Shown here in pieces: positions 167 through 36,684 of a stretch of 36,684 bases of DNA. The notes beneath the pieces are model-generated. The model made no database searches. It saw only the letters and a program-made list of their open reading frames with translations, and was not told the DNA's origin. The translations under genes and the position numbers were made by a program. This stretch comes from a virus, in the IMG/VR virus record IMGVR_UViG_3300020423_000004, positions 1 through 36,684 of that record. One strand, 5' to 3'. Each line of letters begins with the position of its first letter. Within the stretch, counting starts at the first letter, position 1.

Positions 167-385
167 TTATATTATGTTAAATAGTATATTTATGTATATT
201 AGTTGTAAGGGGTTGTTCATTTCTAGAATTATGGAGGTATGGAGATTTTCGACCTCGTGTTTTGGAAAAGCCCGTAAATACTGACCTTCGACAATCCCAA
301 GCCGAAAATTCATGATTTTTGAATTACGCTTGTTTTTAGACTCTAACCGTTCAAACTGACTCATTATCTGATCATTCCTGCTCAT
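167..385 (-). CDS. Possible small hypothetical protein (72 aa)
   Basis: An open frame of 72 codons on the same strand as the head genes, separated from the F stop by about 100 bases. There is no convincing ribosome-binding site before the ATG at 385. Its first codons overlap one of the 25-base direct repeats, and the C-terminal third is translated from very AT-rich DNA, which gives Ile/Asn-rich sequence. No family is recognised. It could be a real small gene at the end of the leftward arm, but chance is at least as likely. Confidence 0.2.
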   Translation of the reverse strand: MSRNDQIMSQFERLESKNKRNSKIMNFRLGIVEGQYLRAFPKHEVENLHTSIILEMNNPLQLIYINILFNII

Positions 386-426: not shown

Positions 427-466
427 CTTTAAACGCACTTTAAACGCCATTTAAACGCTCTTTAAA
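417..466. repeat. Phased TTTAAA array 1 (five units, 11-bp period)
   Basis: Hexamers start at 417 (TTTAAC), 428, 439, 450 and 461, each exactly 11 bases after the previous one. Three are followed by CGC and a variable pair. Another TTTAAA, out of phase, begins at 485 and covers the F stop codon. The array therefore lies just beyond the 3' end of the F gene. It belongs to the same family as the arrays at 8130, 10664, 20048, 23994 and 31742. Confidence 0.8.
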
Positions 467-8084: not shown

Positions 8085-8123
8085 TTAAAATGAAAAGGCT
8101 TGCCATTACAATAGGTGCAAGCC
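8085..8123 (-). terminator. Intrinsic terminator at the end of the leftward early operon
   Basis: On the minus strand GGCTTGC (8123-8117) pairs perfectly with GCAAGCC (8103-8097), and a T-rich tract follows (complement of 8096-8085). It lies after the last early gene (8163-8381) and before the late promoter at 8057, so it separates early from late transcription. Confidence 0.75.
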
Positions 8124-8129
8124 AATTAA

Positions 8130-8157
8130 TTTAAATTAGGTTTAAACATGGTTTAAA
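8130..8157. repeat. Phased TTTAAA array 2 (three units, 11-bp period)
   Basis: TTTAAA begins at 8130, 8141 and 8152. It occupies the gap between the stop codon of the 8163-8381 gene and the early terminator stem. Confidence 0.75.
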
Positions 8158-10663: not shown

Positions 10664-10702
10664 TTTAATCCTTCTTTAAATGATGTTTAACTAACGTTTA
10701 AA
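10664..10702. repeat. Phased TTTAAA array 3 (four units, 11-bp period)
   Basis: TTTAAT 10664, TTTAAA 10675, TTTAAC 10686 and TTTAAA 10697, each 11 bases apart. The last unit contains the stop codon of the MuB-like gene, and the array fills the whole gap before the next gene, whose AAGGA ribosome site lies between units. Confidence 0.75.
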
Positions 10703-11954
10703 CTGCTGGTTTGTTTAGTACTGAACTGAAAATGCCATTGATAAGTAACTTATCGATCGCAACATCGGGTTTTTTGGCGGCATGGTTTAAAACATGCGGT
10801 AATAGGTTTTCAACTAACTCCCGGGCATTACCTTCAACACGCTTGTGAAGCCATTGCCACCAAGCTGCATCGTCGCTTGCAAGCTTTATTGTTCCCTCGG
10901 TTAGCTCAATGAATAGGGTTTGAATATCTTCAACTGTTACTTGCCCGATTGGTTTTGGCCAAAAGCACACACGGCTTGCAATGAGTTCGTAGCGCTCTTG
11001 TGTTTGAAGTTTGTCGACTAATTGAATATTGCCTACCAGGGTTACACCCACAATGGCTTGGTCACTGATAGTTCGTAACGGGTCAAGCGCATTAGGTTTG
11101 CACTTATCGGCTTCGTCTAAGATGATCAGGCGGTCTGTATCACGCAGCGCCATGATAATCTTTTGCATGTTTTTGTAGGCGCTTGGGCAACGTGACAAGC
11201 CTAACGCCAGGATTAATTGATCGAGTACTTGTGTACTGCTGGTTTGTTCACTACCGGCAATTAAAATAGCTTCTTTGTTATTGCGACAATACTCGCTAAT
11301 ACCTTTTGTTTTACCTAAACCAGCTTGGCCTGCAAACACACTAAAGCGGCGGCGCTGTCTTGCTTGGTCGCAAGCCATCGCAATAAGCTTAGAAGTGCTA
11401 GTAGGAATAAACGGCACCTTGCCGTAAACAATACTGACCTGCTTACGTTCTTCAGGCTCTGCTACTTGTTTTACAGATTGCTTAGGTTGATCAAGTTCTG
11501 CAGGTTGTAAAATGGCCCAAATGTCATGCAAATGCTTACTTGGTTTTGCATTGTATTTACCATTAATAAGCTGGCTAATAGTTGCAGCGCTTTTACCCAT
11601 GCTGGCAGCGATACTCGCACTGGTAATGTTTTGGTCGCGGATTTCAGGTGATTGCAGGCGTAAACAAATGCGTGTGCATAAATCACGGTCTGCCTTTGAG
11701 TACGACTTATTAAAGTCATTACGCTTTTTTATATCGTTAATGCTGGCTTCGTTAAAAAGCTCTTGCCACAGTGCATCAATAATCTTTTGCGGATCGATGG
11801 TGCATGTAAAAGCCAGTGTTTCTTTAATTGACTGCAGTGCATAGCCACAGGTTAATTTTTCAGGTGTTAGACCTAACGTCGACATTTCTTGGTTGATCAG
11901 CTCAACACGAAGTGTTTGCTCGTCTGAATAGGTAAATGGGATTTTATAGCTCAT
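10698..11954 (-). CDS. B: MuB-like transposition ATPase (AAA+)
   Basis: The DNA-binding ATPase that selects target DNA, delivers it to the transposase and stimulates strand transfer. Starting at the ATG at 11954 (AAGGA eight bases upstream) it is 418 residues, longer than Mu B (312). Extra sequence is N-terminal: about 100 residues of unknown function, then a helix-turn-helix (ITSASIAASMGKSAATISQL, about 110-129). The ATPase has Walker A AGQAGLGKT (about 208-216) and Walker B LIILDEAD (about 276-283). A longer frame starts at 11987 but lacks a ribosome site. The start overlaps the A gene by 11 bases. Its stop codon lies in TTTAAA array 3. Confidence 0.9.
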   Translation of the reverse strand: MSYKIPFTYSDEQTLRVELINQEMSTLGLTPEKLTCGYALQSIKETLAFTCTIDPQKIIDALWQELFNEASINDIKKRNDFNKSYSKADRDLCTRICLRLQSPEIRDQNITSASIAASMGKSAATISQLINGKYNAKPSKHLHDIWAILQPAELDQPKQSVKQVAEPEERKQVSIVYGKVPFIPTSTSKLIAMACDQARQRRRFSVFAGQAGLGKTKGISEYCRNNKEAILIAGSEQTSSTQVLDQLILALGLSRCPSAYKNMQKIIMALRDTDRLIILDEADKCKPNALDPLRTISDQAIVGVTLVGNIQLVDKLQTQERYELIASRVCFWPKPIGQVTVEDIQTLFIELTEGTIKLASDDAAWWQWLHKRVEGNARELVENLLPHVLNHAAKKPDVAIDKLLINGIFSSVLNKPAV

Positions 11955-13608
11955 AGCTTTGTTCCTTGCGTGTAGTTGGTTGATCAAGTAATTCGTCTAA
12001 GTCAATTTCGTGTTGTGGTTTAGTCGGTGTTACATCGAACTCAAACACGTTAACTTCTTGTTTATGTGCAATTGCTGTTGTCGCAGGGGCTGCAAGTTCT
12101 TCAACCGCTTTAATATCAATAATGCGATCATTAGCTTCTTGTGCTTCAACCTCACGGCGTTTGGTATCTAAGCGTTTTAAGCGACCTTCACGGCGTTTGC
12201 TTTCGGCTTGTTCGATACGCGATGTAGGTACGGCATGCGACTTGGTTTTAAGGTTTGCAAACATTAAGAACTCACCGTTTAACTTATAAAGCTTGGTGTA
12301 GCTGTCATCGTGTAAGTCGTATGCAGCAATTAGCTCTTGGCCATTAAACTGGTGTAAGTAATCAGCGCTGTAGTCACGTTGATGCAAGCGGAAGCGACCA
12401 CGACGAACATTTACTTTTTCACGCGGTAGCATGACAAAATCGTCTTCTACTGGTGGTACACGTTCTAAGCCTTCGTCCCACACTTGCTGGCGTGTTTTAC
12501 CTTTAATTTCTGGGTGTTCGCTATTGTGGTAATCATTTAAAAAGGCTTTAAATTCAGCAATCCATTCATCTACCGTCGGAAGTTTACGTTTACCCTGCTT
12601 AGCCTCTTTTAAAATAAGTTGCTTATGTCGGTCATCGTGATCACGCCCACAGTAAGTACTAAAACGTTTACCAACGCGGTCTTCCATGTGTAAGAAAAAG
12701 CGTTCTATCCACTTAACACGTGCATTACCTGGTATTGTAAAAATAACGTCGATTTCAAACTGGGCATAAAAGCCGGTTGTTTCATCGTTCATTAATTTGT
12801 TTTTGTAACCAGATCCGTTATCTAGATAAAACATGGCAGGTACATTGTTGTGTACTTTGATCGCACGGCTTATTGCTGCAAGCGTATCTAACGTGCTTTC
12901 TGCATAGCCCAGTTCCCAGCCAACAATGCAGCGGCTACCCACATCTTGAAACGCTGTAAGCTCTGCGCGGTAAGGCTTACCAGTTTTAGGGTGTGCTAAA
13001 TAAACATCAAGCGTATGGCCATCGCCGTTATACAAAACACCAGGCTTAATGTTTTCTGTTGAGCGCAATAAGTGATCTTTATGCTTTTCACGGTACAACT
13101 TAGCACCCATACGGTACGGGCTTTGTGGGCCTAGTTCGTGAGGTAAGCCATTAATAAAACGGCGTACTTGATGGTGCTCTGCTTTATAACCTTCTTTGTT
13201 TAGTTGATCGGCCACTTGCGCAAAGCTAGGGCTATTTGGGCTGTGGTAAAGCTCTAAACAACGTGCAAGCCAGCTGTATTGTGTTTGGGCTTTGCCTTTG
13301 TGGTTTGGCAATAAACCATTAATGCCGTTTTCTTTATAAGCATTACACCAGTTATAAATAGTTGCGCGCCCTGGCAATTTACCTAATGCGTTAATTGCTG
13401 TAGTTACAGAGCTAATTGCTGTGTTGCCACGGTACTCTGACACTAAATTTGCAAATGCTTTAGGTAAACCACCCTCTTGGGTTAATAAGTGACGAACCAG
13501 TACAGCTCTGCTTTGGGCTTTTTTACGTGCTGGTTCACTGGCGTTTTGCCAGGTTAGTTCTAAGCCAGTACTTGGTAAGTTATTAAATTTTTGGACTGCA
13601 GGATGCAT
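11944..13608 (-). CDS. A: MuA-like DDE transposase
   Basis: Catalyses strand cleavage and transfer during integration and replicative transposition. The catalytic triad is visible: Asp196 in NGDGHTLDV, Asp263 in YLDNGSGYKN and Glu302 in VKWIERFF, in an RNase H fold, followed by the Mu-type beta-barrel (about 395-455) and a basic C-terminal region that would bind B. An N-terminal helix-turn-helix (GRATIYNWCNAYKENGINGLLP, about 80-101) fits the end-binding domain. At 554 residues it is shorter than Mu A (663), and the first catalytic Asp lies about 70 residues earlier, so the Mu enhancer-binding domain seems to be missing. GGAGAGAG precedes the ATG. Confidence 0.95.
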   Translation of the reverse strand: MHPAVQKFNNLPSTGLELTWQNASEPARKKAQSRAVLVRHLLTQEGGLPKAFANLVSEYRGNTAISSVTTAINALGKLPGRATIYNWCNAYKENGINGLLPNHKGKAQTQYSWLARCLELYHSPNSPSFAQVADQLNKEGYKAEHHQVRRFINGLPHELGPQSPYRMGAKLYREKHKDHLLRSTENIKPGVLYNGDGHTLDVYLAHPKTGKPYRAELTAFQDVGSRCIVGWELGYAESTLDTLAAISRAIKVHNNVPAMFYLDNGSGYKNKLMNDETTGFYAQFEIDVIFTIPGNARVKWIERFFLHMEDRVGKRFSTYCGRDHDDRHKQLILKEAKQGKRKLPTVDEWIAEFKAFLNDYHNSEHPEIKGKTRQQVWDEGLERVPPVEDDFVMLPREKVNVRRGRFRLHQRDYSADYLHQFNGQELIAAYDLHDDSYTKLYKLNGEFLMFANLKTKSHAVPTSRIEQAESKRREGRLKRLDTKRREVEAQEANDRIIDIKAVEELAAPATTAIAHKQEVNVFEFDVTPTKPQHEIDLDELLDQPTTRKEQSYEL

Positions 13609-13617
13609 TACTCTCTC

Positions 13618-14526
13618 CTACTCGCGGGTTTTAATTCGGTCGTTAAACATGGCAAGCATGTATTCACGGTTAGCTTGTGCGTCTTGCCATTCGTCTTCGG
13701 CGAAGTGTGGAATTTGCTCAGCGCCTACTAGGTTCTCTGAACCAAACTCTTCAGTTAAGCGGTCAAGCATGTGGTTAATTCGCTGTTGAATACCTAGCCA
13801 TAAGTGCCATGTAGTTTGAGCGCCGCCAATGCGGTGGTTTTGGTCTAGGTCGCGGCTTGTACATAATTGCTCAACCATGGTTATGAACTCTTCAAGTGAC
13901 TCATTAACAATGGCGCTATGTGCAAATGCGTTTTGACGCACCTGTGCAACAAGTATTGGTAACTCGTAGCGTTGTTTAGGTGCTTTGGTTAATCGCTCAT
14001 TTTCAAGCGCGTTAATAAGCGTTGCTGTCTGCTCTTCAAGTTCAGTGTGCTTCTCTTTGAGTTTTTTAATCTCTTTACGAAACTCACGTACAGATAACTC
14101 GTTAAGCGTTTCTAGGTCGTCTTCATCCAATGATTCAACGGTATCAACTGGTAAGCGCGCCATTTCAATTAGCTTGCTTTTGTTCATGTTTAAAACGCCA
14201 AGCGTCTGGCGCTTTGTATCAGGTAAAGCCATTAGCATCTTAGCTACTGTAATTGCATCTTTAGCAGAACTCGCCGATATACCGCGTTCTTTTAAGCTTC
14301 TAATAAAGCTGCCATGCTCTGTTTCTGTTTTAATTGCCATGTAAAGAAAACCACGTTTAGCAGTATTAACGATGGCTTGTTCTTCTAGGTTCATTACAAC
14401 AGACCATGCTTCCTCAATAGTTTCTGGAATAACTAATTGAATTTGACCAGCAACTTTCTCAATTTTTGAAAGTAATTGTTGCTGCTCTTCAGCTGTGAAT
14501 ATTTGCTCTGTCAACTCAGTGCTCAT
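13618..14526 (-). CDS. Early accessory protein, DUF3102-like
   Basis: A 302-residue protein found upstream of transposase genes in Mu-like phages. The block KRGFLYMAIKTETEHGSFIRSLKERGISASSAKDAITVAKML (about residues 58-99) resembles the DUF3102 pattern in which a helical segment ends in a DNA-binding-like motif. A long coiled coil follows (about 147-182, rich in Glu/Lys), then a helical C-terminus. Function is unknown; an accessory DNA-binding role is an inference. A strong G-rich ribosome site is present. It is nine bases from the transposase start. Confidence 0.6.
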   Translation of the reverse strand: MSTELTEQIFTAEEQQQLLSKIEKVAGQIQLVIPETIEEAWSVVMNLEEQAIVNTAKRGFLYMAIKTETEHGSFIRSLKERGISASSAKDAITVAKMLMALPDTKRQTLGVLNMNKSKLIEMARLPVDTVESLDEDDLETLNELSVREFRKEIKKLKEKHTELEEQTATLINALENERLTKAPKQRYELPILVAQVRQNAFAHSAIVNESLEEFITMVEQLCTSRDLDQNHRIGGAQTTWHLWLGIQQRINHMLDRLTEEFGSENLVGAEQIPHFAEDEWQDAQANREYMLAMFNDRIKTRE

Positions 14527-15417: not shown

Positions 15418-15506
15418 TGTAAATTACCTTATTGATAAATGAACCTGCTATTTGCTGGTACTCCTAGCAGGTTTATGTTTAACACAACTGAACTATATGC
15501 ATTCAT
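15418..15506. promoter_or_regulatory. Divergent immunity control region with operator dyads
   Basis: The gap between ner (leftward) and the repressor (rightward) must hold the early and repressor promoters. AACCTGCTA (15442-15450) and TAGCAGGTT (15465-15473) form a perfect 9-bp inverted repeat with a 14-base spacer and no T-run after it, as expected for an operator. A second palindromic motif, TGTATACA (15508-15515), with a related GAATACATAC 20 bases on, overlaps the start of the repressor frame and could be an autoregulatory site. Confidence 0.6.
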
Positions 15507-17423: not shown

Positions 17424-18425
17424 ATGGCAAAAAGAAATGAACGCAATATCTTATTTTTAGATCTTAATTTATACACTAAAACTTACACACCGCATATCAC
17501 AGGCCTTGTAAATCAATTCACTTTAGATGAATTAATGAAAAAGGTTGTTGCTTTACGTGAAAAGAATAAAGTTAATGTTGAGTTAGGGACTAAAGAACCT
17601 AAAGAGCTATACCTTGCAGATGTTAAATATGACAAGCCAAGCACTACTTGGCAGTTATTAATTAATGTTGTTGATACTTCACTAGCAGATGAAGTGCACC
17701 GTAAAATTGGGGGGGCAGATGATACGCGAAAGGTAAATAGTAAAACAGATGATGTTGGTACAGAATTTTCGAGTCATGTAATTTTTAAAGGTTCTAAAAA
17801 GAAAAATACTGTATATTTAGCCTTATATGAACAAACACCTAATTTGCCAGTCAAGCTTATTTCTCGCTATTTAAATGAAGTTTTTAAGCGTGTTGAACAT
17901 GAGTTTGCTAAAGAGTTTAAGATTAAGCACCCTCAAAATATTTTGGACTCAAAGGGTAATCCTAAAATGATCAGAACTTATTTTAAATGCCATTTTAATG
18001 GGTATGCTTCCGACCAGTTTAAGAATGATGTAGATAATGGCGTATTTAACGATGTAAAGCTTATTACTGGGGAAATGAGTAAAGTTGAAGGTTATGATGT
18101 GCAAAAGCACAGCCAGCTTAGAGAAATACAAATACCTGTAAAAATTGATAAAGCTGAATTACTAAAAGCGGGTGGTAATCATAACTGGCTTGCTAAATTT
18201 AGACTAGGCGTTGCTAAAGATTTAGGGATGGATGAGCTTAAAGTTTCGTTTAAAGATGAAACAGACGCATCACATACAGCCAATATAGACGTAGATACCG
18301 GTATGTTAGTCAACTCTGAGAAGTATGTTAAAAAAGTAAAGATTAGTGAATTTTCGGAACCTTTAACTACATCTGTTGATCTAATATACAAACCGATTAT
18401 TAAGAAAATGCTCGAACATATATGA
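17424..18425 (+). CDS. RexA-like cytosolic protein, candidate superinfection-exclusion sensor
   Basis: A 333-residue soluble protein with no membrane segment. Read against my memory of lambda RexA (279 aa), conserved-looking features occur in the same order: an N-terminal beta region with ELYLADVKYDK, then NVVDTSLADEVHRKI, a segment NTVYLALYEQTPNLPVKLISRYL, a central YFKCHFNGY ... VFNDVKLITG, the basic strand REIQIPVKIDKAELLK, and a C-terminal DELKVSFKDE followed by GMLVN. RexA senses phage replication or recombination intermediates and activates RexB. The downstream gene overlaps by four bases (ATGA) and encodes a four-TM protein, the RexAB arrangement. The Kiwa pair KwaA/KwaB is an alternative comparison. 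The alignment is by eye and the similarity is remote. Confidence 0.5.
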   Translation: MAKRNERNILFLDLNLYTKTYTPHITGLVNQFTLDELMKKVVALREKNKVNVELGTKEPKELYLADVKYDKPSTTWQLLINVVDTSLADEVHRKIGGADDTRKVNSKTDDVGTEFSSHVIFKGSKKKNTVYLALYEQTPNLPVKLISRYLNEVFKRVEHEFAKEFKIKHPQNILDSKGNPKMIRTYFKCHFNGYASDQFKNDVDNGVFNDVKLITGEMSKVEGYDVQKHSQLREIQIPVKIDKAELLKAGGNHNWLAKFRLGVAKDLGMDELKVSFKDETDASHTANIDVDTGMLVNSEKYVKKVKISEFSEPLTTSVDLIYKPIIKKMLEHI

Positions 18426-20047: not shown

Positions 20048-20127
20048 TTTAAATCGTTTAAACGCTCTCAGTTAAATTTAAACACGGTTTAAACTTGGTT
20101 TAATGATTATTTAAAGGTGTATTTAAG
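20048..20127. repeat. Phased TTTAAA array 4
   Basis: Units at 20077, 20088, 20099 (TTTAAT) and 20110 are exactly 11 bases apart. Further units at 20048, 20057 and 20122 are slightly off phase, and two more (20141, 20150) run into the stop codon of the gene at 20151-20372. It is the longest non-coding array. Confidence 0.75.
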
Positions 20128-20515: not shown

Positions 20516-21652
20516 ATGGCAAAGAAAGCAAGCACAAATACACAGTTCGATTGGTTTGAAGTTTTTAAAGCTGGTACCCAAACAGACAGCAAAGGCAATA
20601 CCCAAACTTTTAGTAACGCTGATTTAAATAGCGTTGTTGCTAACTTTACACCTAAAACCGCACCGCTTGTAATCGGCCACCCTAAAATGGATTCTCCTGC
20701 ATGGGGTTGGGCCAGTGAACTAAAAGCCAAAGACGGCGTACTTTACGCTAAAGCAGATGAAGTAAGCAGCGAGTTTGCTAAAGCCGTTGAAGATAAGCGC
20801 TACCCTAACCGCTCAGTGAAATTAGAAAAAGTCGAAAACGGCTACAAACTTGCCCACATTGGTTACTTAGGTGGCAAGCCTCCTGCTGTTGACGGTTTAG
20901 CCTGGCAATTTAACCAGGATGAGAATGCCGACACCCTTACCTTTGAATTTGCTGCCGGTGATATGGACAGTATATCGCTACGCACATCAAACACCCTCAC
21001 ACGCCTTATGAGCAATTTGCGCAACTTCATAACTGACCGTTTTGGTAGTGAAGCGGCAGATAAAGTTGTGCCCGAATACGAATCAGAGTGGTTAAAAGAA
21101 GAAACCATTATTGCTGAGCATGAGCGAGCCAAAGGTAACGCCGAATTTAGTAAAGGTGGCGATGATGACGCCACGCCCCCGACCAATGAGGACAATGCGA
21201 TGGATGAAGAAGAAAAGAAAGCACTTCAAGACCAGCTTGATGCAGCCAATGCCAAGAACAAGCAACTTGAATACACCCAGCGTGTAACAGCGGCTAAAAC
21301 GTTTATCAATGATGAAGTTAACAATGGTGATGCACCGCGCTTAACTAACACAGATGGCGTAGCTGAGTTTATGGCAAGCCTTGGCGATGGCGACACAACG
21401 TTTGAGTTCGCTGCAGCGGATGGCGAGAGCCAAACACTTAAACCAGCAGAATGGTTTAAAGGTTTCTTAAAAGGTTTACCTGAGCAAACTGGCCTAACAA
21501 GCGAGTTTAATAAAGATGATACAGACGGTGAAGATGGCACCGACACAGCTGAAACGCTCGCAGCTAAAGCGCTTGAGTATCAAAAGTCACAATCTGACAA
21601 AGGCATTACGATTAGTATCTCGTCTGCGTTAGACCACATTAAGAAGGCATAA
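20516..21652 (+). CDS. I: Mu I-like head maturation protease with C-terminal scaffold
   Basis: A 378-residue protein combining a prohead protease with a scaffold, as in Mu gene I/Z. The N-terminal protease half (about 1-170) includes VIGHPKMDSPAWGWASELK and YPNRSVKLEKVENGYKLAHIGYLGGKPPAVDGL; Ser104 in the PNRSVKLE block is the likely nucleophile by family position. An acidic linker (about 217-235) leads to a coiled-coil scaffold (EEKKALQDQLDAANAKNKQLEY). An in-frame ATG at 21200 with its own GAGG site could produce the scaffold alone. It is the first gene of the rightward late operon and is preceded by a Mor-type promoter, without a ribosome site of its own. Confidence 0.88.
   Translation: MAKKASTNTQFDWFEVFKAGTQTDSKGNTQTFSNADLNSVVANFTPKTAPLVIGHPKMDSPAWGWASELKAKDGVLYAKADEVSSEFAKAVEDKRYPNRSVKLEKVENGYKLAHIGYLGGKPPAVDGLAWQFNQDENADTLTFEFAAGDMDSISLRTSNTLTRLMSNLRNFITDRFGSEAADKVVPEYESEWLKEETIIAEHERAKGNAEFSKGGDDDATPPTNEDNAMDEEEKKALQDQLDAANAKNKQLEYTQRVTAAKTFINDEVNNGDAPRLTNTDGVAEFMASLGDGDTTFEFAAADGESQTLKPAEWFKGFLKGLPEQTGLTSEFNKDDTDGEDGTDTAETLAAKALEYQKSQSDKGITISISSALDHIKKA
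21200..21652 (+). CDS. Possible internal-start scaffold protein (Z-like)
   Basis: In-frame ATG at codon 229 of the protease gene, with GAGG about eight bases upstream. Translation from here would give 150 residues: the acidic coiled-coil region and the C-terminus without the protease. Mu makes its scaffold in this way from within gene I. The internal site is seen in the sequence; its use is inferred. Confidence 0.45.
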   Translation: MDEEEKKALQDQLDAANAKNKQLEYTQRVTAAKTFINDEVNNGDAPRLTNTDGVAEFMASLGDGDTTFEFAAADGESQTLKPAEWFKGFLKGLPEQTGLTSEFNKDDTDGEDGTDTAETLAAKALEYQKSQSDKGITISISSALDHIKKA

Positions 21653-23105: not shown

Positions 23106-23573
23106 ATGTTTACGACAACTCAAACAGTTATCGACAAAATTGGCATTAATGTGCTGTTGCAATTTGTGTCTGCAAAATTTGCAGAGCCAGGTGAATACCC
23201 AACCCGTGACGATGTAGAAACGGCGTTACTGGGTGAACCTGAAACAGAGTTGCAACAGCAGATTGCTGCTTGGTATAGCGAAGCACTAAAAGACGTTAAC
23301 GCCACTATTACGGGCTTTGTAGCTCGTTTTAAGTTAACACAAGACGATATCAACACGTCGGTGTTGCCAGGCATTGCGATTGACTTAATGCACTGTGAAT
23401 TGGCAACCAATATCGCCGACGAACACCTTAAAGAACTGAACAAAAAGGCCATGGCCCTATTAGACAAAGTTAGTAAAGGTGTGATCCAAATTAAGGAAGA
23501 TGCGCCTGCAGGCTCAAGAACTGGGATGCGAACAAAAGCTGCAGGCTCTCAATTTGACTGGGACAGGTACTAA
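23106..23573 (+). CDS. DUF1320 head-tail connector, Mu gp36-like
   Basis: A 155-residue helical protein of the DUF1320 family, which acts as a head-completion/adaptor protein below the portal. Family features include the N-terminal pattern TTTQTVIDKIGINVLLQF and the helical pair IAAWYSEALKDVNATITGFVARF and INTSVLPGIAIDLMHCELA. GAGG lies five bases before the ATG at 23106. It follows the intra-operon terminator and precedes G, as in Mu-like phages. Confidence 0.8.
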   Translation: MFTTTQTVIDKIGINVLLQFVSAKFAEPGEYPTRDDVETALLGEPETELQQQIAAWYSEALKDVNATITGFVARFKLTQDDINTSVLPGIAIDLMHCELATNIADEHLKELNKKAMALLDKVSKGVIQIKEDAPAGSRTGMRTKAAGSQFDWDRY

Positions 23574-23575
23574 CG

Positions 23576-23998
23576 ATGGCTGGGGTATTTATCGATTTAT
23601 CGGGTAATGCACTGCCCCGCCTGAGCCAAATTGCAACAACCAGTGAAAGAGCTACCGATGTATTGGACGATATCGGCGCATTTTTAGACATGGACGTCAC
23701 CACCCGCTTTTTACGTGAAATGACACCTGAAGGGCGTAAGTGGGAACAATCTCAGGCAGCAAAAGACCGTGGCGGTTTAACACTAACCGATACACGCAGC
23801 TTAGCTGGCTCTGTTACACACAACGTAAGCTACAACACGTTAGTACATGGCCTGGGTGAAAAGTATGCCGCCATACATCACTTTGGTGGTGAAACAGGAC
23901 GCAATAAAAGCGTGAAGCTGCCTGCTCGGCCAATACTTGGCATAGCAGCAATACATGAAGCAGAAATTAACGACATCGTTGAAGACTGGTTAATTTAA
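23576..23998 (+). CDS. G: Phage virion morphogenesis protein, Mu G-like
   Basis: A 140-residue member of the virion morphogenesis family (Mu gpG / P2 S-like tail completion). The conserved segment MTPEGRKWEQSQAAKDRGGLTLTDTRSLAGSVTH (about residues 50-83) and the later YAAIHHFGGETG and LPARPILGI are typical. In Mu, G follows F directly; here F is 22 kb away on the other strand and G has joined the connector genes. Its stop codon is in the first unit of TTTAAA array 5. Confidence 0.88.
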   Translation: MAGVFIDLSGNALPRLSQIATTSERATDVLDDIGAFLDMDVTTRFLREMTPEGRKWEQSQAAKDRGGLTLTDTRSLAGSVTHNVSYNTLVHGLGEKYAAIHHFGGETGRNKSVKLPARPILGIAAIHEAEINDIVEDWLI

Positions 23999-24043
23999 AG
24001 TGAGTTTAAAGAGGGTTTAAATGTCATTTAACTTTGATTTAAA
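23994..24043. repeat. Phased TTTAAA array 5 (five units, 11-bp period)
   Basis: TTTAAA at 23994, 24005 and 24016, TTTAAC at 24027 and TTTAAA at 24038, all exactly 11 bases apart. It covers the G stop codon and the start codon (24021) of the next gene; the GAGGG ribosome site sits between units. This is the most regular array. Confidence 0.85.
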
Positions 24044-31000: not shown

Positions 31001-31590
31001 TGGAGTCGTTAAACGCTGGGTTACTCGCTGATTTAGCCAATAGTGGTCGCGCCCGTTACTTTGTTCGCCTGGCATTTAAAAGCGGTGATGTATTACTGCA
31101 TACGGGTGTAGGTGAACGTCGCTTTAAAAACCTAACCTGGAAAGGCTTAGGGATGCTCGGCACCGTGAGTGAAATCCCTGCTAATGACAAGAACGACAGC
31201 GCCCGTATTCGCTTAACCCTTCACACGCAAGACACAGCCGTACTGGCTGAAGTCGCTGAAAACGATCCTATTGGCCATACCTGCGAAATCTACCTTGTTA
31301 CCGTGGATGAACACTACCGCGTAAGCCAAAGTCAGCTGCTTGAAAGTGGTTACATTGTGGCGTGCGATGTAGAGCGCGGTGCAGTATCACAAGTGCAATT
31401 AAGTGTAGCGGGTGAAAGTGAACGCTGGAAAGAGTCTCGCTTACACCAGCGCTGGAATGATGCGACACAACGCGCCCTCTACCCTGATGATGCTTTTTTC
31501 AGTGAGCAAGCGTCTGCCAATAAACAAAACCTACCTGACACACAACCTGGTAACTACATAGGGAATAAACGCCGTGAACGCCACCGTTAA
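31000..31590 (+). CDS. Tail tip protein, DUF2163-like (lambda gpL position)
   Basis: A 196-residue protein in the position of DUF2163/gpL-like tip proteins. It has YFVRLAFKSGDVLLHTGVG near the start and a central LTLHTQDTAVLAEVAENDPIGHTCEIYLV, a pattern found in this group of tip proteins. The usual C-terminal ironcluster cysteines of lambda gpL are not evident. GGGAGG lies six bases before the ATG, which overlaps the preceding stop. The NlpC-like gene starts inside its 3' end. Confidence 0.65.
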   Translation: MESLNAGLLADLANSGRARYFVRLAFKSGDVLLHTGVGERRFKNLTWKGLGMLGTVSEIPANDKNDSARIRLTLHTQDTAVLAEVAENDPIGHTCEIYLVTVDEHYRVSQSQLLESGYIVACDVERGAVSQVQLSVAGESERWKESRLHQRWNDATQRALYPDDAFFSEQASANKQNLPDTQPGNYIGNKRRERHR

Positions 31591-31984
31591 ACTAGCCGCC
31601 TTTATAAATCAACGTAATTGCATGCCGTTTCAGTGGGGCAAAAATGATTGCTGCCTACTCGTGGCTGATTGGGTTCGCTTTGCGACAGGCCAAGACGTTG
31701 CTGCAGATTTTAGAGGTAAATACCGCTCTGAGAATGGTGCATTTAAACAACTCTTTAAACGTGGTTTAAACGATGTTCAAAGCGTCTTTAAAGACCGTTT
31801 AAACCGTGAAATTCCTATTGCGTATGCGCGCCGTGGTGATTGCGCCCTTGTTGAATTTAACGGTGAACTTGTTGGCGGAATTGTGACAGTCAATGCCGTT
31901 GTATGTGTTGGCGAAAATGGACTTGTGACTAAACCTATGAGCTGCGTAAAAGCGGTTTACCCATTGGAGCCGCGCAATGTCTAA
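31574..31984 (+). CDS. Tail tip NlpC/P60-like protein (DUF6950-like)
   Basis: A 136-residue protein with the NlpC-like start FQWGKNDCCLLVADWVRFATG (about residues 19-39, candidate nucleophile Cys26 or Cys27) and a RGDCALVEF ... GGIVTVNAVVCVGENGLV C-terminal half. In tail tips such proteins help cut peptidoglycan at DNA entry or act as structural relatives. The His expected in active NlpC enzymes is not evident, so activity is uncertain. GTG start inside the preceding gene. Residues about 57-77 (AFKQLFKRGLNDVQSVFKDRL) are encoded by TTTAAA array 6. Confidence 0.65.
   Translation: MNATVKLAAFINQRNCMPFQWGKNDCCLLVADWVRFATGQDVAADFRGKYRSENGAFKQLFKRGLNDVQSVFKDRLNREIPIAYARRGDCALVEFNGELVGGIVTVNAVVCVGENGLVTKPMSCVKAVYPLEPRNV
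31742..31803. repeat. Phased TTTAAA array 6, inside a coding sequence
   Basis: TTTAAA at 31742, 31754 and 31765, TTCAAA at 31776, and TTTAAA at 31787 and 31798. The last five are exactly 11 bases apart; the first is 12 from the second. It lies wholly within the DUF6950-like gene. Confidence 0.8.
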
Positions 31985-34900: not shown

Positions 34901-36684
34901 ATTACAAGTTAACGCTGAAGGCTTAACCGGCTATACGGGCGAAATTACCTCACTGGTATTTAACCTGGGCCCGTGTGATATAGACGCCATTGAAATAGGT
35001 AAACGTGGCGCGAGCGATTTAGCACTTCAAGATATCACTACACGCACTACAAACCTTGAGCAAGAAATCGATGGTCGCACAGGTCGCATGGCACAGTATG
35101 CCACTACCATTTGGGTTAATGCCCTTGGCTATCAAAAGCAAAGCGATGTGCAGCAGATTATCGATTCGTTCAATACGACATATAAAGTCTCTGCAACGCT
35201 TCAAGAGTTTGACGAAAACGATGTACTAACAAAAGCTAACAACGCGCAAGAGTTTATCAATGGCGCTGAAGCTTACATTGAGCAGCAAATTACGGCATTT
35301 ATCGACCAAGAAGATGGCGTAAATGCTAAGTTTAGCATGGTTAACCAGCGCTTAGACGCACAGCAAGGCACCATTACTAAGCAAATTGCGCAGATGCAGA
35401 ACCTCGAAGTCGACTTAAATAACGCATCAATAAACGATGTGTTACAAGCGTGGAACGAGTTTCAAAAGAATGACGAGTTACAAGATCTAGATATCAAACT
35501 CGCCCTTGCAGATGAAAAGCTCCAAGCCCGTACAGAGGAACTAAAAAGCGTATCTGAGCAAAGCCTAGCGCTGGTATCGCTGTTTGAGCAAAGCAAGTCA
35601 GCCTTAACAAGTGTATCAACGGCCTTTTCTAATTCGCATCAAGCGCAAGTAAAGCAAAATCGTGAATTTGAAGTTCAGCATAAAGACGCTAAAGCTAAGT
35701 TTATCAATGTAGAGCAAGCGATTGCCGACGAAACCGAGGCCCGTGTTCAAACTGAGCAAGCGTTTCAAGCCGAGTTTGAAAACAACACAGCTAAGTTCGC
35801 ACAAGTTAATCAGGCTATTGCGAATGAGACTGAAACCCGCGTTCAAAATGAACTAGCATTTCAAGCTGAGTTTGATAACAACGCAGCTAAGTTTGTGCAA
35901 GTTAATCAGGCTATTGCGAGTGAGACTGAAACCCGCGTTCAAAACGAGTTAGCTTTTCAAGCTGAGTTCGAAAACAACGCCGCTAAGTTCGTACAAGTAA
36001 ATCAAGCGCTTGCTAACGAGACTGAGGCCCGTGTTCAAACTGAGCAAGCCTTTCAAGCTGAGTTCGATAATAATGCCGCTAAGTTTATTCAGGTCAATCA
36101 GGCCCTAGCTAATGAAACGGAGGCGCGAGTTCAAACTGAGCAAGCGTTCCAAGCTGAGTTTGAAAGCAACACAGCCAAGTTTGCACAAGTAAACCAAGCC
36201 CTTGCTGATGAAACGCAAGCCCGTGTTCAAACTGAGCAAGCGTTTCAAGCTGAATTTGATAACAACGCGGCGAAGTTCGTACAGGTAAACCAAGCGCTTG
36301 CTGATGAAGTACAAACCCGCGTCCAAAACGAATTGGCTTTTCAAGCTGAGTTCGAAAACAACGCGGCAAAGTTTGTTCAAATCAATCAGTCACTCGCAAA
36401 CGAAACCCAAGCTCGGAACACGTTAGAGCAAGTGTTAAGAGCCAAGATAGAAAACGACGACACCGATGTATTAGCAGACGCGCATGAATTTACACGAACA
36501 GCGGTTGGCTATTGCTTAGATGCAAACGGCAACCCGACAAGTGAGAATGACGCAGCGGTTTGTGTTGCCGGTGGTGGTACGTGGATTGCTGGGCCGCTTG
36601 CTGAATATATCGCAAACATGCAAATCAGTGACGGTGTAAACACAGCAAGCATTAAGCAGCTTCGCCAGTTGTTCACCACCATTG
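31977..36684 (+). CDS. J-like tail tip / receptor-binding protein (3' truncated by window)
   Basis: ATG at 31977 overlaps the preceding gene by 8 bases; the frame stays open for 1569 codons to the window edge. Layout: an N-terminal hub region like lambda J (about 1-465; for example RGARVWDPRDTNQDPDDETTWLW); two fibronectin-III-like domains (about 468-555 and 565-670); acidic coiled coil (about 675-760); a jelly-roll carbohydrate-binding-like domain starting YSWQFNSSDEGFTG (about 894-1010); more coiled coil; eight 32-residue repeats (about 1231-1486); then GYCLDANGNPTSENDAAVCVAGGGTW, a motif common near the C-terminus of J-type proteins. It is the main candidate for host recognition. Its C-terminus is missing. 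Confidence 0.85.
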   Translation, partial: MSKVVDTVVDTGGDLFGIGRSIYDKTVGALWDSLTPDVPEEDLATLAKGLQKGIDQPRRITFGRDRVGGVIAHQAEVERDKKKFVQMVVLINGAPIDALEEIYIADKPLTEYPSESWDYELSDGRHTTANSKAVAKMAGWTAEHIGYGQAHIFVEFENNREVFPDGISDTEFLIRGARVWDPRDTNQDPDDETTWLWSQNAVLCALHYVRFYGAHEVPFERLPLEWWIAAINVCDEEAEFTDKDGNITTEPRYTTNGSFTFTTKPLDVLNQLEACFAGKIFRQMGQWYVRVGAWYGNPTYTINTDDVHGNIKIKWHADLRDRANVVRATFTDPDQNYERTDAPPVISTAYQERDNQVLEKSITLPFVRSSTTAQRLATIHLEQTRLGEIELPLKHKGLAAAVGRTVYLNLPGESISNKIYRVTERRFRLDGGVTLMCIEDGPDLWGDNLIPGAQDITPNSDYLIGAPKPVFDVRVTLDGDGNGIVKWAHPSPLSVFEYDVEFYTTIEPEVEGEDPIDVLMYQNTVTYTQSIIPTLDIGEYTARISAKNIFGQRSLKAIVKFNFDKPLVPTISFDATYNSIVLTASVDGSSTGTSFQWQFFGTEEPVIEEPTEENPDGSTQVDEPPILNGYSYTFTGLVPETEYFFKVRTINVVGVSEWIVFAASTPPADITEFITNLELTQLSESAQNLINDINEQVDRLREGSENNIDDKITDIEDNLSDAIKDLDDKVNTDIDDINSNIGELNDNQNTIKDAVFLLDRSVALLDAEALNRIDIERVVFDLTAEYVRFREAYENRTAEQDRLVDAAVTVDPESGRIVNRAEEITADMLQEAYQEIDAVKGQVTTQVKKLEVSDKRIQQAESELSIQADKINQRVTYTEVQSEISSAIQALVPAYSWQFNSSDEGFTGVTSHNTAGYIVANEAVTSPDISYIAEENTMFRLRVRLHVGATWLGQVVINGTITLSVPAPATSGWETLQVNAEGLTGYTGEITSLVFNLGPCDIDAIEIGKRGASDLALQDITTRTTNLEQEIDGRTGRMAQYATTIWVNALGYQKQSDVQQIIDSFNTTYKVSATLQEFDENDVLTKANNAQEFINGAEAYIEQQITAFIDQEDGVNAKFSMVNQRLDAQQGTITKQIAQMQNLEVDLNNASINDVLQAWNEFQKNDELQDLDIKLALADEKLQARTEELKSVSEQSLALVSLFEQSKSALTSVSTAFSNSHQAQVKQNREFEVQHKDAKAKFINVEQAIADETEARVQTEQAFQAEFENNTAKFAQVNQAIANETETRVQNELAFQAEFDNNAAKFVQVNQAIASETETRVQNELAFQAEFENNAAKFVQVNQALANETEARVQTEQAFQAEFDNNAAKFIQVNQALANETEARVQTEQAFQAEFESNTAKFAQVNQALADETQARVQTEQAFQAEFDNNAAKFVQVNQALADEVQTRVQNELAFQAEFENNAAKFVQINQSLANETQARNTLEQVLRAKIENDDTDVLADAHEFTRTAVGYCLDANGNPTSENDAAVCVAGGGTWIAGPLAEYIANMQISDGVNTASIKQLRQLFTTI
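35667..36434 (+). repeat. Eight 96-bp tandem repeats in the J-like gene
   Basis: Units of 96 bases (32 residues) begin at 35667 and then at 35763, 35859, 35955, 36051, 36147, 36243 and 36339. The consensus contains FQAEFxNNxAKFxQVNQA and ANETxxRVQ. The first unit and the end of the last are diverged. Two versions of the join alternate among units (RVQTEQA and RVQNELA). Helical, heptad-like content suggests a coiled-coil shaft whose length changes with repeat number. Confidence 0.93.

Follow-up and report, generated by a model that had tools for sequence, protein, structure and literature searches.

A phased array of TTTAAA hexamers inside a tail gene of a transposable phage is maintained by selection on the DNA rather than on the protein. 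The array is in the DUF6950 gene of the window, by which we mean the whole stretch of viral DNA analyzed here (36,684 nucleotides; IMG/VR record IMGVR_UViG_3300020423_000004).

Results

The array in the DUF6950 gene is kept by selection on DNA

The array is real and a chance origin is ruled out. Exact copies of TTTAAA start at window positions 31742, 31754, 31765, 31787 and 31798, and TTCAAA is at 31776, giving steps of 12, 11, 11, 11 and 11 bp. A first-pass annotation had reported six units, one of them TTCAAA, in a DUF6950-like gene, with a period of 11 bp. The positions and the match to Pfam PF22262 (Table 1) confirmed the units and the gene. The period held for four steps, and the first step is corrected to 12 bp. 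Across the window there are 11 pairs of TTTAAA separated by 11 bp, 8 by 22 bp and 6 by 33 bp, and the number of pairs at 11 bp expected from a fourth-order Markov model is ~0.07. The phasing of TTTAAA in the window is unmatched by any other hexamer, and none comes near. A near DNA match to the window was not found in the phage collection.

We compared codons in 23 IMG/VR loci whose DUF6950 proteins are 80-99% identical, yielding 23 distinct genes including that of the window. All five exact TTTAAA hexamers were present in 23/23 genes. None of the 12 silent sites inside these hexamers varied, compared to 95 of 126 elsewhere in the gene (Fisher p 2.5e-7, which is indicative only because the sequences are related). 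In the spacers inside the array, 5/10 silent sites varied (CTC/CTA/TTA/TTG, GTC/GTG/GTA and CGT/CGC) with the hexamers unchanged. Leucine was encoded by TTA in 46/46 cases inside hexamers versus 46/204 outside, and the T of GGT and CGT codons was fixed where it completes TTTAAA. In one relative (phage L300), a Gly-to-Asp change left the hexamer intact.

The array also persisted at much lower similarity. A P. amylolytica transposable phage whose DUF6950 protein is 41% identical has different amino acids and lacks 12 bp but retains phased TTTAAA. Five DUF6950 genes taken from other phages, of Salmonella and Vibrio, contain no TTTAAA. Because no silent hexamer site varied, as opposed to most of those outside, and because the array survives at 41% identity, we conclude that selection acts on the DNA.

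The first-pass annotation had argued that selection on the protein could not explain the phase and that the DNA motif itself seemed to be under selection, and both claims held. The codon-level alignment of homologues that it proposed found the silent sites that keep TTTAAA invariant in the 23 distinct genes. The outcome named as refuting it, free variation at silent sites with loss of TTTAAA, was not met, as free variation was found only outside the five hexamers. The alternative that it offered, a recent insertion in frame, failed: the segment is in all 23 distinct relatives and the alignment has no gaps. Missing from that annotation was the context, a transposable phage with arrays at each end, at the center and between, resembling the right arm of the strong gyrase site (SGS) of phage Mu.

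Table 1. Positions of the arrays and landmark genes in the window (a dot indicates that no strand is assigned).
Feature	Position	Strand	Remarks
Left terminus (TGTAAGGGGTTGTTC)	204..218	+	Alignment of relatives and G001 complete prophage; TGTAAGGGG at 204
Left-end array, 4 TTTAAA at 11 bp	428..466	.	225 bp inside left terminus
Array, 3 TTTAAA at 11 bp, intergenic	8130..8157	.	
Array, TTTAAT, TTTAAA, TTTAAC, TTTAAA at 11 bp	10664..10702	.	Between MuB-like gene and next ORF
Transposition ATPase (MuB-like)	10698..11987	-	PHROG 296, E 1.1e-46
Transposase (MuA-like)	11944..13608	-	PHROG 310, E 1.6e-103
Two-unit array inside transposase (MuA-like) gene	12536..12552	.	Hexamers kept in 26/27 and 25/27 homologues
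Central array, upstream of head protease I	20057..20127	.	TTTAAA-20-TTTAAA-11-TTTAAA-11-TTTAAT-11-TTTAAA-12-TTTAAG
Head maturation protease (Mu I), central-site landmark	20516..21652	+	PHROG 976, E 2e-69
Array, 4 TTTAAA and 1 TTTAAC at 11 bp	23994..24043	.	Spans stop/start codon junction
DUF6950 tail-module protein, 136 aa, host gene of the reported array	31574..31984	+	Pfam PF22262, E 8e-35; PHROG 2134
Reported array, 5 TTTAAA and 1 TTCAAA	31742..31803	.	Wholly within DUF6950 ORF

The window is a Mu-like transposable phage of Pseudoalteromonas

The window contains a Mu-like transposable phage of Pseudoalteromonas that is ~43 kb when complete. The gene order is that of KS10 and TJ1, and the genes include those for MuA- and MuB-like proteins, Mor, GemA, a Mu-type terminase, portal, F, protease I and capsid. 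The criteria for a transposable phage were met: MuA- and MuB-like proteins, genes corresponding to Mu F, I, T and G, and a 5-bp target duplication, seen in two complete relatives, each of which has the same 5 bp on both sides (TTAGT in one and ATTAC in the other). Relatives of the terminase were found in Pseudoalteromonas genomes. One complete relative, a prophage of 43096 bp in genome G001, has TTAGT on both sides. Relative to this prophage the window is truncated at the right, and window bases 1-203 are flanking host DNA.

Arrays are distributed along the phage genome

This phage has about eight arrays. Seven fall within the window, and another, located in a complete relative, is next to the right terminus. 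One array is by each terminus, one is near the center, and the others lie between. In complete phages, the terminal arrays are at 0.005 and 0.996-0.997 of the length, the central array is at 0.45-0.47 (three complete relatives), and the DUF6950 array is at 0.73-0.75. In the G001 prophage, clusters of at least two TTTAAA are at 0.005, 0.18, 0.24, 0.28, 0.47, 0.51, 0.56, 0.73 and 0.997 of the length. The cluster at 0.73 is the DUF6950 array, and the pair at 0.51 is missing from the list for the window. Corresponding sites recur in genomes G003 and G004. The step is nearly strictly 11 bp across this group of Pseudoalteromonas phages.

Membership in an array was associated with conservation of the hexamer. 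The coding unit (24038) of the array that spans the stop/start junction was kept in 23/23 homologues, and an isolated TTTAAA in the transposase gene was kept in only 3/27. More generally, isolated TTTAAA hexamers were often lost in relatives (e.g., 3/27, 5/24 and 5/26), whereas array members almost never were. Some isolated hexamers were kept too (24673 and 24850, both in 26/26). The array at 8130 adjoins an inverted repeat, GGCTTGC...GCAAGCC (window 8090-8157), that looks like a transcription terminator.

In seven Pseudoalteromonas genomes (~5 Mb), most matches to three phased units were in or near a transposable prophage. A wider sample of the family had matches in only 13/197 genomes.

Phased TTTAAA arrays are concentrated in transposable phages

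Phased TTTAAA arrays are concentrated in transposable phages. We scanned IMG/VR for three exact TTTAAA at 11 bp and obtained at least 119 loci, each only ~9 kb long. The scan for AAATTT at the same spacing was complete and gave 102 loci. Mu hallmark genes were found in 62/119 TTTAAA-array loci, compared to 2/102 AAATTT-array loci. In a control scan with 10-bp phasing, Mu hallmarks were found in 17/119 loci; this was a weaker signal than that at 11 bp, but it exceeded the AAATTT control, as 10-bp steps occur in some Mu-like phages. The reversed control pattern had zero matches when 49 array phages were scanned as whole records; because an array was the criterion for choosing these records, the control is their only informative result.

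In 15 classic Mu-like genomes, there were 101 clusters of at least two phased TTTAAA versus 9 expected by random placement, and seven other AT hexamers formed 0 to 5 clusters (5 for AAATTT). The array scan was the source of ten of the 15 genomes but not of the remaining five (Mu, SuMu, Mannheimia and two Vibrio phages). Ten Pseudoalteromonas phage records contained 82 TTTAAA clusters versus 0 for AAATTT. Across very distant phages the steps were 10, 11 or 12 bp. The GC-rich relatives B3, KS10 and TJ1 had no arrays of three or more units. A Mu-like prophage of Helicobacter rodentium (BK070140, L330) has a four-unit TTTAAA array at 11 bp (23264-23302), and the motif is therefore not limited to gammaproteobacteria.

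In the literature searched, we found no description of many such arrays per genome or of such arrays in genes; the search left uncovered the 2004 and 2006 papers on SGS sequences of Mu-like phages.

The central array resembles the right arm of the Mu strong gyrase site

Motif, phase and place are common to the central array of the window and the arm of the Mu SGS. The gyrase cut site of Mu is annotated at 17879, between genes G and I, and to its right are TTTAAA at 17894, TTTAAA at 17915 (+21) and TTTAAC at 17926 (+11). The right arm of the SGS is essential and carries phased bending signals (PMC6463007). By cryo-EM, its AT repeats face the C-terminal domain (CTD) of GyrA via the minor groove, and the arm is wrapped on the CTD (PMC11626157).

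The gap between G and I contained phased TTTAAA in SuMu, Mannheimia 3927AP2 and 12 IMG/VR Mu-like phages, that is, in every classic one examined. In these phages plus Mu, phased pairs occurred at 13.7 per kb in the G-I gap versus 0.40 per kb elsewhere, and in near-full-length records the arrays in the gap were at 46-53% of the genome. A step of 20 or 21 bp followed by steps of 11 bp, the layout in Mu, is common to many classic central sites and to the central array of the window. That array meets the criteria of location and layout for a Mu-type SGS, being upstream of gene I, near mid-genome, with a 20-then-11-bp arrangement. The phages differ in number of sites: Mu has one clear site, whereas this phage has several arrays, mostly off-center, with one in a tail gene and one per terminus.

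SuMu, Mannheimia 3927AP2 and Vibrio martha 12B12 are similar to the phage in the window in having phased TTTAAA in the G-I (or F-I) gap, at 50-52%, and further arrays near the genome ends. The steps in SuMu and Mannheimia are 10, 11 and 10 bp, in contrast to the nearly strict step in the Pseudoalteromonas phages.

The DUF6950 array satisfies only part of this description. It has the phased AT right arm of the TTTAAA type, but it fails the SGS criteria of a central position between head genes G and I and of a first step of 20 or 21 bp. The long first step is absent from the off-center arrays. We therefore do not class the DUF6950 array as an SGS and suggest only that it may work like the arm of one, with gyrase binding inferred.

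In several classic central sites (L326, L327 and IMG/VR Mu-like phages), the first TTTAAA is preceded at a distance of 15-25 bp by a word like GATTTATCG, which is approximately the place of the gyrase cut in Mu. Beyond ATTTATC-like words at several classic central sites, noted by eye and unscored, we found no common gate-segment motif beside all arrays.

Discussion

We favor, by a modest margin, the explanation that the DUF6950 array is a gyrase-arm-like, cis-acting, DNA-wrapping element that organizes or supercoils the phage DNA. Gyrase binding is inferred, without binding or cleavage data for these phages. The array spacers are 58-63% GC in genomes of 42-43%; such an arrangement, with AT facing in and GC facing out, has been reported both for the gyrase motif (PMC6379681) and, by cryo-EM, for the right arm of the SGS on the GyrA CTD (PMC11626157). 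With TTTAAA units one helical turn apart, separated by GC-richer spacers, deformable AT minor grooves would all lie on the same side of the helix, which could allow the DNA to wrap on the C-terminal beta-pinwheel of GyrA. Arrays of three to six units would fit a gyrase contact of ~35-52 bp. In E. coli gyrase sites, G/C content varies with a 10-bp phase in arms of ~47 bp (PMC6379681). The 130-bp motif determined there by Topo-Seq is like the arrays in having AT units with GC-richer spacers, a helical period and the wrap length of one GyrA CTD. It differs in being degenerate, whereas the AT unit here is one exact hexamer.

In this explanation, the central array would be the counterpart of the SGS, whose role in Mu is to promote the pairing of prophage ends. 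The off-center arrays, including that in DUF6950, would be extra wrapping sites beside the termini and between, and they would probably help to supercoil the phage DNA and fold it into a domain ready for replicative transposition. Both gyrase as the ligand of the off-center arrays and the benefit of those arrays to the phage are inferences. Several points count against gyrase. Off-center copies of the SGS have no known role in Mu, in which an SGS works well only when it is central, and a site from a close relative was the sole one among those tested that could replace it (PMC10052514, PMC3820752). Letter-for-letter conservation of the hexamer exceeds what bendability needs and suits a sequence-reading protein. 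Plasmid pSC101, which has a known strong gyrase site, has no such array, arrays of at least three units are missing from the GC-rich relatives B3, KS10 and TJ1, and the off-center arrays lack the long first step.

The main competing explanation, which remains possible, is cooperative binding of the TTTAAA palindrome, along one face of the helix, by a sequence-specific protein of the phage or the host. The arrays would be operators or anchors, and bridging of those at the ends, at the center and between would fold or mark the genome (e.g., for transposition self-immunity). The exact conservation of the hexamer and the nearly strict step in the Pseudoalteromonas group favor this explanation, as do the presence of arrays both inside the genome and beside the two termini and the known need of transposable phages for genome self-protection and domain folding (PMC2837660, PMC3820752). 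However, none of the nine early-region proteins scanned stood out as a dedicated binder, and the only Pfam matches among them were GemA and two helix-turn-helix regulators. The variable steps in very distant phages resemble helical phasing rather than a rigid protein lattice, and in Mu gyrase occupies the same motif at the center. Repeats of 11 bp are also known from ParR-type systems (parC; parM/parR, with a ribbon-helix-helix binder). No such family was found in the nine early-region proteins scanned with Pfam, which do not represent every ORF. An explanation based on phased, flexible DNA read by HU, IHF or H-NS (H-NS-type silencing or intrinsic curvature), without gyrase, appears unlikely. 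Several nucleoid proteins are attracted by phased AT tracts, and the Mu domain needs IHF, Fis and HU (PMC3820752). However, AAATTT, the hexamer expected to give curvature when phased, is hardly used (5 and 0 clusters versus 101 and 82 for TTTAAA, in the classic genomes and the Pseudoalteromonas records, respectively), and elsewhere in the host chromosomes the arrays hardly occur.

Two other explanations fare worse. The arrays might be dispersed repressor sites that silence the prophage, similar to the stoperators of mycobacteriophage L5, which are many short sites scattered through a temperate phage genome. The arrays are likewise short sites scattered genome-wide, both in and between genes. 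We consider this very unlikely. There is no TTTAAA in the divergent early-promoter gap (15418-15506), the expected place of a main operator, and the nearest are at 14189 and 16270. The core of the array is palindromic and so has no direction relative to transcription, and the array that is constant in distant relatives is at the place of the SGS. The TTTAAA arrays thus differ from L5 stoperators in being palindromic, phased and missing from the early promoter. It could also be that the Phe-Lys and Leu-Asn residues are required in DUF6950 and that the DNA motif is a by-product. Those amino acids are indeed conserved among the 80-99% identical relatives. This explanation is refuted by the codon test and is all but excluded: silent positions in the hexamers are free to vary and never do, the T of GGT and CGT is fixed where the hexamer needs it, and the Gly-to-Asp change in one relative spares the hexamer. 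In addition, other DUF6950 proteins are without these residues, and the same kind of array is found outside genes.

The Mu SGS has been treated so far as a single central element, and a sequence rule for it has been hard to state because the E. coli sites are degenerate. Natural variation yields a simple rule, in which TTTAAA recurs at helical steps and the intervening DNA is richer in GC, and this rule is seen under selection inside a gene and in many copies per genome. If gyrase is the ligand, the arrays provide a large comparative set of wrapping arms for studies of gyrase and suggest that whole prophages are organized by several such sites. If the ligand is another protein, then a folding protein of transposable phages is still to be found. 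A bolder reading, toward which we remain slightly skeptical, is that genome-wide sets of phased TTTAAA in transposable phages of many bacteria form a loop-folding code for the prophage, with arrays at both termini, at the center and every few kilobases, even in coding sequence, acting by wrapping or bridging. The single SGS of Mu would then be a reduced case that is already known.

Additional features of the phage ends

Words of the TTTAGA type near the left end (204-420; TTCATTTCTAGA, GTTTTTAGAC and CGTTTAGAATTAGA) are possible transposase-binding sites. We rejected the TTTAAA arrays as candidates for such sites; the TTTAGA-like sites near the left terminus differ from them. At the right end of the window, in the tail-fiber region, there is a 96-bp tandem repeat of ~6.8 copies (window 35715-36388) with a 288-bp higher order. 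At one locus (L312; G004:C2, ~246000-255200), the right terminus of the complete prophage is directly followed by another transposable prophage, which is broken. This second prophage, of which the left end and two gene F fragments are found, represents a tandem insertion close to a phage end.
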